NCBI RefSeq assembly: GCF_021032705.1 | Contig: NZ_JAHVXI010000001.1 | Location: forward strand, 992,001 to 1,056,000 | From: Psychroserpens luteolus | GTDB lineage: Bacteria; Bacteroidota; Bacteroidia; Flavobacteriales; Flavobacteriaceae | Length of the DNA: 64,000 nt | Reading direction: 5' to 3' | In this document: positions 47,406-50,913 of the stretch, in pieces | How the letters are laid out: each line of letters starts with the position of its first letter | How positions within the stretch are numbered: position 1 is the stretch's first letter | Position numbers and translations under genes: made by a program | The notes under the pieces: model-generated | What the model was told of the DNA's origin: nothing | Databases searched by the model: none | The model's input: the letters and a program-made list of their open reading frames with translations, nothing else

Positions 47406-48596
47406 ATGGACAGAAGACATTTTTTAAAACAATCCACATTAGCGAGTAGTCTCTTTTTTGTACCTAATTTTATAAAGGCCTTTGAAAGTTTACCTTCGCA
47501 TACTTTAGGTTTTAAACGCTTAGTTGTTATTCAACTTTCAGGGGGAAATGATGGTCTTAACACAATTATCCCTTTCAATAATGATAACTATTATCGAAAT
47601 CGACCAACTATTAGCATTTCTAAGAGTGATGTGTTAAGAGCAAGTGATGATTTGGGATTTCATAAGAGTCTACTACCTCTTAAGAAATTATTTGATCAAG
47701 GACATCTAACAATTATCAATAATGTTGGCTACCCAAACCCCAATCGTTCACATTTTAGAGCGACAGACATTTGGCAAACGGCCAGTAGTTCTAATCAATA
47801 CTGGCAAACAGGTTGGATTGGCCGTTATTTGGATGAGTATGGCAATAAACCATTTAATGCTCTTGAGATTGATGATAGTTTATCGCTCGCGTTAAAAGGA
47901 CAAAACACTACTGGTATTGCAGTTAAGAATCCTTATGTGTTGTTTAAAACATCCCAAGATCCCTATTTTAAAAATGTACTAAACCATTATCAAGATGAAC
48001 ATTTGAGTGAGCATAATCTTGGTTACTTATATAAAACAATGATTACTGCAGAATCCTCTGCAAAATATATTTTCGAAAAACATAAAACGGCAGTATCAAA
48101 ACAAGATTATCCAAATAATGAGTTTGCAAGACAATTGAAAACAACGGCAAAACTAATAGCCTCTAATATTGAAACTAAAGTATTCTATTCATCACTTGGT
48201 GGATTTGATACACATGCTGGTCAATTAAATAGTCAGGCTCGATTGTTAAAAACATATGCCGAATCCATGGAAACTTTTGTTAAGGACTTAAAACAACAAG
48301 GTACTTTTAACGATACACTTATTGTCACTTTTTCCGAATTTGGAAGACGAGTAAAACAAAATGCGGCAAACGGGACGGATCATGGTGCTGCAAGTAATGT
48401 GTTTATTATAGGCAATCAACTAAAAACGCCAGGGTTTTATAATAATCTGGCAAGCTTAAGTGATTTAGATGATAATGGAGACTTAAAATACACGATAGAT
48501 TTCAGATCAATTTATGCTACAATCCTAGATAAGTGGCTAGCTGTAGACGATGAAACAATATTAAATGCATCGTTTCAAAAATTAAAGTTCATATAG
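47406..48596 (+). CDS. DUF1501 family protein with twin-arginine-like start
   Basis: 396-aa protein of the DUF1501 family (alkaline-phosphatase/sulfatase-like fold, function unknown). The N-terminus MDRRHFLKQSTLASSLFFVP resembles a Tat signal. Core motifs are LVVIQLSGGNDGLNTIIP, RSHFRATDIWQTA and TFSEFGRRVKQNAANGTDHGAAS with conserved His and Asp. I start it at the ATG at 47406, two bases after the DUF1800 stop. The longer frame from 47361 would lie within the previous gene and precede the signal. It ends just before the repeat region at 48604. Confidence 0.92.
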   Translation: MDRRHFLKQSTLASSLFFVPNFIKAFESLPSHTLGFKRLVVIQLSGGNDGLNTIIPFNNDNYYRNRPTISISKSDVLRASDDLGFHKSLLPLKKLFDQGHLTIINNVGYPNPNRSHFRATDIWQTASSSNQYWQTGWIGRYLDEYGNKPFNALEIDDSLSLALKGQNTTGIAVKNPYVLFKTSQDPYFKNVLNHYQDEHLSEHNLGYLYKTMITAESSAKYIFEKHKTAVSKQDYPNNEFARQLKTTAKLIASNIETKVFYSSLGGFDTHAGQLNSQARLLKTYAESMETFVKDLKQQGTFNDTLIVTFSEFGRRVKQNAANGTDHGAASNVFIIGNQLKTPGFYNNLASLSDLDDNGDLKYTIDFRSIYATILDKWLAVDDETILNASFQKLKFI

Positions 48597-48600
48597 TATT

Positions 48601-48675
48601 AGAAAACAAAAACCCTGTTTCACATTCGACGAATCGGCATTGAAACAAGGTTATATGTAATTGATTAATAGCACT
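48601..48675 (-). ncRNA. Putative small RNA A (minus strand)
   Basis: Minus-strand unit between a weak -7-like box CATTTTTG (48684 to 48677) and a terminator. The predicted RNA starts near 48672, carries the block TGCTATTAATCAATTACA then TATAACCTT (48673 to 48647) that is identical in copy B, then a hairpin and TTTTTGTTTTCT. The hairpin loop differs from copy B. It has no ORF of note. This is inferred from paired repeats and stem changes, with no expression evidence. Confidence 0.4.
48611..48652 (-). terminator. Hairpin terminator of unit A
   Basis: Arms 48611-48622 and 48641-48652 form a 12-bp stem. The only imperfect pair (48615/48648) is G-U on the minus strand but C-A on the plus strand. 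Followed on the minus strand by TTTGTTTTCT. On the plus strand no T-run follows. Confidence 0.6.
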
Positions 48676-48713
48676 ACAAAAATGCTAAAAATTAAGATTG
48701 ATTTCTAAAAAAA

Positions 48714-48746
48714 ACTATAAGTGGTCAAAAAAACTGTATGAATGGT
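48714..48746 (-). promoter_or_regulatory. LytTR-like operator pair of unit A
   Basis: Minus strand half-sites ACCATTCATACAG (from 48746) and ACCACTTATAGT (from 48725) start 21 bp apart and share the core ACCAYTYATA. The LytTR consensus is [TA][AC][CA]GTTN[AG][TG] in direct repeats about 21 bp apart. The first site matches 8 of 9 and the second 7 of 9. Confidence 0.45.
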
Positions 48747-48811
48747 AAATATGATCAATTTTAAAAATCACATCTGTTTTTTTTGATGAAAAATCACTTA
48801 CATAAATTGCA

Positions 48812-48888
48812 GAAAAAAACAAAAACCTTATTTCGTTATTGACAAGTCAACATTGAAATAAGGTTATATGTAATTGATTAATAGCAGT
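48812..48888 (-). ncRNA. Putative small RNA B (minus strand)
   Basis: Second copy of the unit described for small RNA A. It has the same 27-nt block (48886 to 48860), a hairpin with a different loop, then TTTTTGTTTTTTTCTGC. The promoter box is degenerate (GATTTTAG near 48897-48890), so an activator would be needed. Confidence 0.4.
48824..48865 (-). terminator. Hairpin terminator of unit B
   Basis: Arms 48824-48834 and 48855-48865 pair perfectly over 11 bp. Position 48830/48859 is A-T where unit A has G-C (48617/48646), a full compensatory change. Followed on the minus strand by a T-rich run. Confidence 0.65.
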
Positions 48889-48926
48889 GCTAAAATCGTA
48901 AAAAACAAGGGTGGTCGGTGAAAAAA

Positions 48927-48959
48927 ACTATGAGTGGTTAAAAAACCTGTATGAATGGT
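48927..48959 (-). promoter_or_regulatory. LytTR-like operator pair of unit B
   Basis: ACCATTCATACAG (from 48959) and ACCACTCATAGT (from 48938) again start 21 bp apart. This pair is kept almost unchanged between units while the adjoining spacer is not. Confidence 0.45.
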
Positions 48960-49162
48960 GTTTTTTGGAAAATTTATCAGATTAACTGTATTCTGATTGG
49001 TGTAATAATCAAGTATAATCATCAACACCGTAAGAGTTTTCATATAAATAGTTTAGAAATTAGCTATTAATGTCTAATTATAAGATTTTCAGCGAATTAA
49101 ATTGATTTCGTGTTAAAATAATTCTTAAATTAAACCTGCTATTAATCAATACATAACCAATT

Positions 49163-49735
49163 ATGAAAACTTTTTTTAAGTTAATTCTGTTGACTTTTTT
49201 TGTTTCTTTTGCCTCGTGCGAGACAGAAGATGTGATTACAGAAAATAACAGTAATCGAGAACCAATTAATGAAAAGGAATGTGAAACGGCTTTTGCTTAT
49301 GGCAAAGAAGATGAAGCCATATGTTTTTTAGATGATGATGATTTAAATTCGAATAGATGGGGATGGTCAATTGGACCTCTTACACCAGATCATTATGAGT
49401 CGTATCTTATTTATCAAGCTGCAGGTGGATGTAATTTAAATAATGGAGAAGTCATAGGAACTTTGAATGTTGTTTATGAAGATGACTACGTATTAGTCGA
49501 TTTTGTTGCCAATGAAGGCTATGGATTTTTTGAAACACATTTGTATGTAGGTGCCACGAAGTATCCAACAAAAAGAAATGGCCAATATACCGTAGCTCCA
49601 GGGCAATACCCTTACAGTAATGATATTCCTGATGGAGCTTCAGATGATAGTTATAAAATCGATGATGTCGAAGGCGGCATCTATATTATAGCACATGCTG
49701 TTGTTTGTCCTTTTAAAAAAGACGAAAAAAACTAA
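49163..49735 (+). CDS. Secreted lipoprotein (190 aa)
   Basis: Lipoprotein signal with C19 in VSFASCETED, then an acidic/Asn linker and a beta-rich domain with cysteines in KECETAFAYG, AICFLDD, GGCNLNN and AHAVVCPF. The segments WGWSIGPLTPDHYESYLIYQAA, ETHLYVG and YTVAPGQYPY resemble a cysteine-bearing domain that I have seen in Bacteroidota surface proteins, but I cannot name it. It stands alone downstream of the 48.6-kb repeat region and convergent with the AlbA_2 gene. Confidence 0.8.
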   Translation: MKTFFKLILLTFFVSFASCETEDVITENNSNREPINEKECETAFAYGKEDEAICFLDDDDLNSNRWGWSIGPLTPDHYESYLIYQAAGGCNLNNGEVIGTLNVVYEDDYVLVDFVANEGYGFFETHLYVGATKYPTKRNGQYTVAPGQYPYSNDIPDGASDDSYKIDDVEGGIYIIAHAVVCPFKKDEKN

Positions 49736-49746
49736 CGCCAACTTCT

Positions 49747-49791
49747 AAATACAGTTAACTGTAAAGTGACAATTTATGGTTAACTGTATTT
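49747..49791. terminator. Long inverted repeat between convergent genes
   Basis: AAATACAGTTAAC (49747-49759) and GTTAACTGTATTT (49779-49791) form a 13-bp stem with a 19-base loop. The right arm encodes the last residues of the minus-strand gene. The T-tract is weak, so terminator function is probable, not sure. Confidence 0.5.
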
Positions 49792-50913
49792 TACTTTTCT
49801 TAAAATTCTGGTAGCTTCTTGATAAGAATTATAAACCGCTTTACTGTGTTTTTTTAAGTAAGGCTTGGCTTCATTTAATTTGTTAATAGCATCAGGAAAA
49901 TCATTGAGGTAACAGATGAGGTAAGTTGCTGGAAGATTTTTTAGATCGAGTTCTTCGTGTTTATTCAAAACGAAACCTTTCTTTAATTTTTCTAAAATGG
50001 TATTATTTGAATTATTAATATGATGGAGTAATTTTTTTTCAAATTGTGGTGGCTTAAATAACAAATTGGTTTCAATAGTATAATTAGCATTATCTTCAAA
50101 ATGAATAATGGTTTCTTCTAGTTGATAATACTTGTTTTGATTTTGAAGCCCTAAACTCACATATTCTATAATTTTAAATGTATCACTATCATAAGTAATT
50201 GACACTTCATCTAACGTAGAAAAGAACAAACGAACTTGCTCATTAATGAGTTCTATATCTACACGAGAATAAAAAACTTCGTCTTTAACTGCTTTTTTTT
50301 GCCCAGACCAACACAGCACAAAGTATTCTTTAAATACCTTGTATTGCGGATTGTAATCTTTTCGTTTATTCATAAAATCAAAAACACCATCTAAAGTATA
50401 TTCAATGTTGTTTTGCGCATGGGACTCGATGGCACTTACAATTTTAGAGTTGACATCTTTAATCTCAATGTCAAAAACCTTGGGCATACTCATACTGCCA
50501 TCTCTAAAAAATACGGTACCTCCATAATATTTCCAGATGTTTTTACGTAAGGATGTGAGATTGTCAATAGCTCTAATCGTAACTAAGCCAACAACTTTAT
50601 CATCTGGTAAATGCGGAAATGGGATATTTTCATATTGTACTATAGGTGGATTAGATAGATACGCATTTATAAGATTTTGAATTTTACTATCGTCAAAAAA
50701 ATTAACACCAATGATCTTATTGTCTTCGTCTTCAACACCAATAACAATATAAGAGTTGTTTTTTGGGTTGCTATTAGAAAGTGCACAAATGTGTTTTAAA
50801 AATTTAGCTTTTCCTTCTTTGTGTGTAATATCGACTTTTCGTTTTTTATCATAAAAACTATTCTCATCGTTATGAGCTAATAGATTTTTAATAAGTAGTC
50901 GTTTATTAATCAT
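49780..50913 (-). CDS. AlbA_2 (Schlafen-type) DNA-binding domain protein
   Basis: 377-aa cytoplasmic protein with an N-terminal AlbA_2/divergent AAA_4 domain (about 20-150): FLKHICALSNSN, YIVIGVEDEDNKIIGVNFF and GGTVFFRDGSMSMP are the usual motifs. The rest has no domain that I recognise, with helical HYLNDFPDAINKL and lysine-rich segments. Such domains occur in regulators and in defence-linked proteins. Its start overlaps the previous stop as ATGA and it ends the operon that starts with the aldo/keto reductase. Confidence 0.82.
   Translation of the reverse strand: MINKRLLIKNLLAHNDENSFYDKKRKVDITHKEGKAKFLKHICALSNSNPKNNSYIVIGVEDEDNKIIGVNFFDDSKIQNLINAYLSNPPIVQYENIPFPHLPDDKVVGLVTIRAIDNLTSLRKNIWKYYGGTVFFRDGSMSMPKVFDIEIKDVNSKIVSAIESHAQNNIEYTLDGVFDFMNKRKDYNPQYKVFKEYFVLCWSGQKKAVKDEVFYSRVDIELINEQVRLFFSTLDEVSITYDSDTFKIIEYVSLGLQNQNKYYQLEETIIHFEDNANYTIETNLLFKPPQFEKKLLHHINNSNNTILEKLKKGFVLNKHEELDLKNLPATYLICYLNDFPDAINKLNEAKPYLKKHSKAVYNSYQEATRILRKVKYS

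Follow-up and report, generated by a model that had tools for sequence, protein, structure and literature searches.

RgaR belongs to the LytTR-type regulators. The C. difficile sRNA that it activates, SpoZ, has critical G residues at −72 and −51 (part of PMC10602386). LytTR sites have been described as two repeats of 9–11 nt with 11–13 nt between them, and an E. coli YehT oligonucleotide contains ACCGCTTA-N13-ACCACTCA (part of PMC4847170; the half-sites were marked in the present analysis). For flavobacterial promoters, 5′-end mapping in Flavobacterium psychrophilum has placed a sigma-A box, TAnnTTTG, at −12 to −5 (part of PMC9723704). Members of Bacteroides were reported to be without classical sRNA chaperones, and in Bacteroides thetaiotaomicron the sibling sRNAs FopS, present in 14 copies per genome, bind the RRM protein RbpB (part of PMC11697453).

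The window that was analyzed is a 64,000-nt stretch of the Psychroserpens luteolus genome (NZ_JAHVXI010000001.1, positions 992,001–1,056,000). Two tandem units on its minus strand (Table 1) form a gap-free alignment with an offset of 213 and 114 identical positions out of 143, in agreement with an earlier note on this DNA, in which two tandem, gap-free 143-bp units at that constant offset were said to look like paralogous small-RNA genes. A repeat search of positions 48300–49300 revealed them as the single direct-repeat family (48603–48746 and 48816–48959, spacing 213, 80% identity over 144 nt). The units are flanked by a DUF1501 gene (plus strand, end 48596) and a lipoprotein-like gene (plus strand). 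Read in minus-strand order, both start with an operator and a variable spacer; a weak −7-like box comes next, then an identical block of 27 nt, and a hairpin with a T-run closes the unit. Apart from the box, this is the order that had already been proposed. The block common to the two units is exactly 27 nt long, TGCTATTAATCAATTACATATAACCTT. It is not a single unit: positions 2–11 are a 5′-terminal tag, which occurs on other transcripts too, and the left arm of the terminator stem is formed by its final 6 nt.

In the window's ORF list no frame with at least 60 aa overlaps the units, so the earlier statement that neither contains an ORF stands at this length; it does not stand for shorter frames, four of which (20–59 aa) overlap the stretch 48601–48959. 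The longest of these, with 59 aa, an ATG start and minus-strand coordinates 48864–49043, extends into unit 2. None of the short frames recurs at the matching place in the other unit. An ORF-based explanation of the units was rejected.

Table 1. Predicted features of the two tandem units and of neighboring genes in the window
Feature	Position	Strand	Basis or remark
Unit 1, predicted sRNA gene (operator, promoter, RNA, terminator)	48604..48746	−	Repeat, orthologs; DUF1501 side, AlbA_2-distal
Unit 1 operator, ACCATTCAT-N12-ACCACTTAT	48717..48746	−	Score 12/12, period 21; half-sites from −74 and −53
Unit 1 predicted −7 box, CATTTTTG	48677..48684	−	Sigma-A consensus TAnnTTTG at −12 to −5
Unit 1 5′-terminal tag, GCTATTAATC	48663..48672	−	Predicted +1 at 48672
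Unit 1 predicted transcript, ~68 nt	48605..48672	−	Covariance match 48605–48673, E 5.8e-12 (training-set member)
Unit 1 terminator hairpin, then T-run	48611..48652	−	Fold and covariation
Unit 2, predicted sRNA gene	48817..48959	−	Repeat, orthologs; AlbA_2-proximal
Unit 2 operator, ACCATTCAT-N12-ACCACTCAT	48930..48959	−	Score 12/12, period 21, −74
Unit 2 predicted −7 box, GATTTTAG	48890..48897	−	Two departures from TAnnTTTG
Unit 2 5′-terminal tag, GCTATTAATC	48876..48885	−	Predicted +1 at 48885
Unit 2 predicted transcript, ~68 nt	48818..48885	−	Covariance match 48818–48886, E 3.2e-12 (training-set member)
Unit 2 terminator hairpin, then T-run	48824..48865	−	Fold
Tag at possible 5′ end of lipoprotein mRNA	49138..49147	+	ORF 49163–49735; box TAAATTAA poor in window
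SLFN_AlbA_2 + DUF5929 gene	49780..50913	−	Upstream of units, same strand; syntenic in 30/30 loci L166–L195

Counted from the TAnnTTTG box, the predicted start point of each unit is the G of GCTATTAATC. The box of unit 1 departs from the consensus at one position and that of unit 2 at two, departures that could fit activator-dependent promoters. The operator is a direct repeat of 9 + 12 + 9 nt with a period of 21 bp, its half-sites starting at −74 and −53. This geometry matches the published two-repeat description of LytTR sites and supports the previous assignment of an activator-type operator. A repeat of period 21 at −74/−75 that keeps 10 or more of the 12 key bases was found in 42 of 78 candidate units. 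This fraction is biased, since a few of the 78 are false units and many come from loci that had been selected by their operator. Among 1560 shuffled upstream sequences, 18 scored 10/12 or more at any position and none scored 12. Among the 27 loci that were found with an RNA model and independently of the operator (L169–L195), the operator is present in 15, namely nine scored directly plus L169, L171, L172, L174, L175 and L180, which were merged with identical units. The remaining loci score below 10/12 (11 loci) or are unscored (L182), suggesting that LytTR control is partial or a later layer.

The genome encodes 20 LytTR domains, the nearest about 61 kb from the units, and a LytTR domain search of the genome revealed no such gene adjoining them. 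By analogy with the described sites, LytTR control of the sRNA promoters is nevertheless likely. At one separate locus (L135, G000:C11:830768-831022) a LytTR domain is encoded by an open frame that is interrupted by a single TAA stop. Inspection by eye of the AlbA_2-near units at L024, L027, L033 and L034 indicated that such units often have a degenerate second half-site entering a TTGTAG...CTACAA-like inverted repeat; they look as if another regulator controls them.

The 73-nt 3′ parts of both units fold into a mostly single-stranded 5′ stretch followed by one stem-loop (z −2.7 and −4.4). When 30 units are aligned, 97.7% of the outer-stem cells are paired, compared to 38–59% in slid-register controls; the MAFFT alignment is sequence-based, but the structure was derived from the same alignment, which favors the unslid register. 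Four of ten stem pairs are changed on both sides, with 20 such cells against 4.8 in shuffles.

The operator pattern was matched by 25 stretches in named genomes. Eleven of them are from Psychroserpens, and most of the others from Subsaxibacter, Arcticiflavibacter, Ichthyenterobacterium, Aquaticitalea and several unclassified flavobacteria; matches in Lachnospiraceae and Aneurinibacillus, beside which no unit was found, look like chance, and viral contigs gave 0 matches. A DNA search with E up to 0.01 detected the units in 21 of 22 other Psychroserpens genomes, and the 22nd (G003) has an apparent divergent unit, L243. The 20 genus loci yielded 35 parsed and 4 unparsed units, which together amount to two units per locus at 15 loci, three at 2 and one at 3. 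The tandem design recurs in related species, and the units are therefore not a product of chance. One locus, L079 in G002, carries three nearly identical tandem units with a 268–269-bp period and a degenerate operator, probably as a result of recent local expansion.

A covariance model built from 30 units, R1, was used for searching at an E of 0.001 or better with strict filters. It matched 89 of 397 Flavobacteriaceae genomes and 60 of 237 genera (308 genomes had no match), and conservation in relatives, previously named as a test of the units, was found in this way. The 148 genomes drawn from the order gave three matches, all in Flavobacteriaceae, but this sample is weak for absence outside the family since many of the 148 are themselves Flavobacteriaceae. 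Weak R1 matches may be other tag-bearing sRNAs, because the tag contributes to the model's information; a third R1 match in the P. luteolus genome (C54:83563-83629) is one such case. In all 30 R1 loci inspected, which are among the best of 109 ranked places, an AlbA_2/DUF5929 gene lies within the 1.5-kb flanks, so the ancestral place of the units seems to be just downstream of this gene, on the same strand. Lipoprotein and DUF1501/DUF1800 genes are present at only some of these 30 loci. Conservation, stem covariation, operator and synteny all support two minus-strand sRNA genes, as had been predicted from the letters of the window, and we hold this assignment with high confidence.

The position of the tag was assessed with sites selected on other parts of the units. 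When sites at the 20 genus loci were chosen by operator only, 27 of 27 carried a mismatch-free GCTATTAATC at exactly +1. When they were chosen by hairpin only, 35 of 37 did; the remaining pair (4 and 5 mismatches) are apparently false hairpins, and the segment identities given below do not include them.

The tag is not confined to the units. The string TGCTATTAATCAA has 13 exact copies in the P. luteolus genome, and with up to one mismatch 55 copies were found versus 7 for a backwards control. Read in context, ten of the 13 exact copies sit at possible transcript starts. Six of these, unit 1 included, have TTTG 4 or 5 nt upstream, and the remaining four are unit 2, the lipoprotein leader, and L089 and L093, the last two with poorer boxes; at several possible starts a terminator-like hairpin follows shortly downstream. 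A search for TTTG-N(0-16)-GCTATTAATC in 23 genus genomes returned 221 matches versus 8 for the control. Among the 150 matches listed, TTTG and tag are separated by 4 nt, the sigma-A spacing, in 67, by 5 nt in 20 and by 7 nt in 16, ten of which are one string, while every other spacing accounts for 0–5 matches; these counts are not independent, as orthologs repeat, and represent at least 6 distinct loci. In 199 family genomes TTTG-N4-GCTATTAATC was matched 132 times in 71 genomes, versus 10 times for the control, and 128 genomes had no match. Thirty family loci from this search comprised about ten that are the AlbA_2-linked RNA as judged by the hairpin, the rest being other terminator-bearing short RNAs, mRNA starts and some loci without a recognized feature. 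As for the lipoprotein leader, its tag follows a TAnnTTTG-like box at the right distance in orthologs L022, L023, L025, L026 and L027 (by eye). That the tag keeps its +1 position on otherwise different RNAs speaks for a role of the 5′ end at the RNA level, although a role in DNA is conceivable.

Several of the tag-bearing transcripts are themselves conserved. A second short RNA with the tag has a small hairpin and a terminator, with a TACGTAGnnCTACGTA-like inverted repeat before it; it was found at L088 (G000:C11:1158588-1158600), L225, L231, L233, L237, L238, L239 and L246 and further at L248, L251, L252, L254 and L259. A repeat similar to TACGTAGnnCTACGTA is also located upstream of a gene for a 46-aa protein. 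This 46–47-aa protein, MKKLLLSVAALMFATLLFSQDD..., is probably exported, and its 23–24-nt leader opens with the tag (L095, G000:C53:43914, and L070, L071, L073, L074 and L076). A third tag-bearing transcript, GCTATTAATCAAAGTCCCAAACGTTGATG or close to it, is conserved in the genus (L096, L227, L230, L235, L245, L247, L256 and L264) and occurs in other genera as well (L292, L294); no ORF was recognized in it.

We consider it fairly probable that the units specify LytTR-activated, sibling trans-acting sRNAs with one 5′-terminal seed or protein-binding tag. Judging from the operator geometry, a LytTR-type response regulator would bind the direct repeat, centered near −60, and turn on a weak sigma-A promoter. 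The resulting RNA, as suggested by the spacing of the promoter and the covariation of the stem, would be ~68–70 nt long, begin with GCUAUUAAUC and end in its own terminator hairpin. The working part would be the unpaired 5′ end, acting as a base-pairing seed or as a protein binding site, and the hairpin loop would be a spacer. On balance, we lean towards the 5′ tag being the working part at the RNA level. A simple seed model would not predict that mRNA 5′ ends carry the tag as well. A broader and more tentative proposal is a 5′-end code of Flavobacteriaceae, in which GCUAUUAAUC at +1 marks unrelated sRNAs and a few short-leader mRNAs for one common reader. Such a code, if it exists, would span regulators, LytTR here and the TACGTAGnnCTACGTA operator elsewhere, and its reader might be an RNA-binding protein or a common target; we regard this extension as equally tentative.

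The tag could instead act at the level of DNA, as an initial-transcribed or repressor-binding element, and the short RNAs would then have no specific RNA-level function in it. Its single fixed promoter position, common to sRNAs and mRNAs, is compatible with such an element, but the consensus fold of the modelled sRNAs leaves the tag unpaired. Initial transcribed regions rarely have ten invariant bases starting at +1, and the position of a repressor site usually differs from promoter to promoter. We consider an action at the DNA level unlikely.

CsrB provides a precedent for an RNA decoy that titrates a regulator protein. The sRNAs might likewise be decoys, drawing a regulator off tag-bearing mRNA leaders, and the tag is indeed present in the same sense on the leaders of the window's lipoprotein gene and of the gene for the probably exported 46–47-aa protein. 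However, an RNA with a single site would make a poor decoy, and there is no candidate protein. A search of the genome for the RRM_1 domain, positive for a control in Bacteroides ihuae, gave no match. Titration appears slightly less probable still than an element in DNA.

Pairing of the tag at the window's 45 gene starts was no better than that of shuffled tags. A search for TTGATTAATA...ATGA in 8 genomes exceeded the control only twofold (75 vs 37) and brought up no convincing target. Three of the 13 exact tag copies are inverted and thus give a perfect 12-nt mRNA complement shortly after a stop codon; the genes concerned are YceI-like, CAP-domain and fasciclin genes (L092, L090 and L091), and the complement of the yceI-like gene is conserved in two further species, G004 and G011 (L307, L308). 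As possible sRNA targets, suggested by sequence, these post-stop complements are a lead only.

The earlier note had interpreted the units as a constant body with a variable loop, through which the copies could have different targets, and the loops of units 1 and 2 do differ in the window. To judge this, identities of individual segments were averaged over 17 same-genome and 578 between-genome pairs. The tag and the next 5 nt are identical throughout (mean 1.000 in both sets), and the operator has a mean identity of 0.73 in same-genome and 0.78 in between-genome pairs, while the spacer has 0.50 and 0.51. The outer stem arms are at 0.93 and 0.90 between genomes and at 0.95 and 0.92 between paralogs. 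Loop identity is higher for paralogs (0.68) than for different species (0.60), with 0.40 for shuffled loops; the loops have therefore not been diversified between paralogs. The arm and shuffled-loop figures come from units chosen by an exact 14-mer of the tag, the 4 unparsed units being omitted and the between-genome set being chosen by operator; in the 14-mer-chosen set the figures for tag and operator are partly built in, and the hairpin-only and operator-only figures were relied on. Moreover, an inner stem of at least 3 pairs can be formed in 34 of 35 loops (a raw count, without a shuffle baseline). With a constant 5′ end and loops of this kind, targeting by variable loops was rejected, and we see very little chance that it is correct. 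Since the 5′ end is the same in paralogs, whereas their operators, spacers and loops differ, extra copies of the proposed tag-bearing sRNAs would probably serve to raise dosage or to bring in further inputs rather than to reach separate targets. The part concerning different inputs is weak, as paralog operators diverge little more than operators of different genomes. Of the 17 loci with at least two units, nine have an AlbA_2-proximal copy whose operator falls short of 10/12.

Finally, the hairpins could also stop neighboring transcripts, but that the units are not genes at all, being terminator debris of convergent genes or a duplicated untranscribed DNA site, is the least credible explanation, and debris was rejected on the exact promoter-to-tag spacing, the operator, the stem covariation and the synteny across genera.

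Few sRNAs have been studied in Flavobacteriaceae, and the present analysis adds a widespread syntenic one with a predicted start, operator and terminator. A +1 tag common to unrelated transcripts makes the question of its 5′-end reader directly testable. As a seed, the tag would connect a single regulatory output to several input systems; as a protein site, it would offer a handle for finding a new RNA-binding protein.

At the gathering threshold, Rfam gave no match in the whole window or in 9 other loci, and nothing credible appeared at E up to 5; insofar as Rfam is concerned, this agrees with the earlier remark that no named family with such an architecture was known to its author. FopS was not matched in the Rfam scans of the window, the presence of a FopS model in the Rfam copy used being unconfirmed. 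Open-licence literature on flavobacterial, Bacteroides and LytTR-linked sRNAs and on Psychroserpens yielded no description of the tandem sRNA, and neither did a search for the string TGCTATTAATCA.

Rfp18 of Flavobacterium psychrophilum is, like the RNA described here, a conserved flavobacterial sRNA, but it is said to pair via its third stem-loop, whereas the present RNA has one stem-loop (part of PMC9723704). The E. coli sites of YehT (BtsR) and YpdB are close to the present operator in geometry and, for YehT, in sequence; the yhjX and yjiY promoters, on which that work was done, belong to protein genes, in contrast to the sRNA promoters here (part of PMC4847170). SpoZ shares with the units an sRNA promoter with a direct repeat, its critical bases at −72 and −51 being comparable to half-sites that start at −74 and −53. 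It differs in coming from another phylum and in its sporulation role, and the part of PMC10602386 consulted does not describe it as a tandem pair. The architecture is that of FopS, which are also Bacteroidota siblings of ~65–70 nt (a predicted length in our case) with a single-stranded 5′ stretch that contains a conserved seed, then a terminator hairpin, and with sequence diversity further downstream (part of PMC11697453). However, the FopS seed consensus, GTGTTTTTCATAGTATTAGATTTAAGGTTAACAAA, is not the present tag, with no common stretch exceeding TATTA (by eye); FopS has 14 copies per genome, compared to one to three in tandem at the 20 genus loci; and a LytTR operator, present here, is not mentioned for FopS in the same part of that paper. 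The partner of FopS is the RRM protein RbpB (part of PMC11697453), and the Psychroserpens genome is without an RRM_1 match. Since seed and partner protein differ despite an equal architecture, we regard the tandem units as a new variant rather than as a member of FopS.
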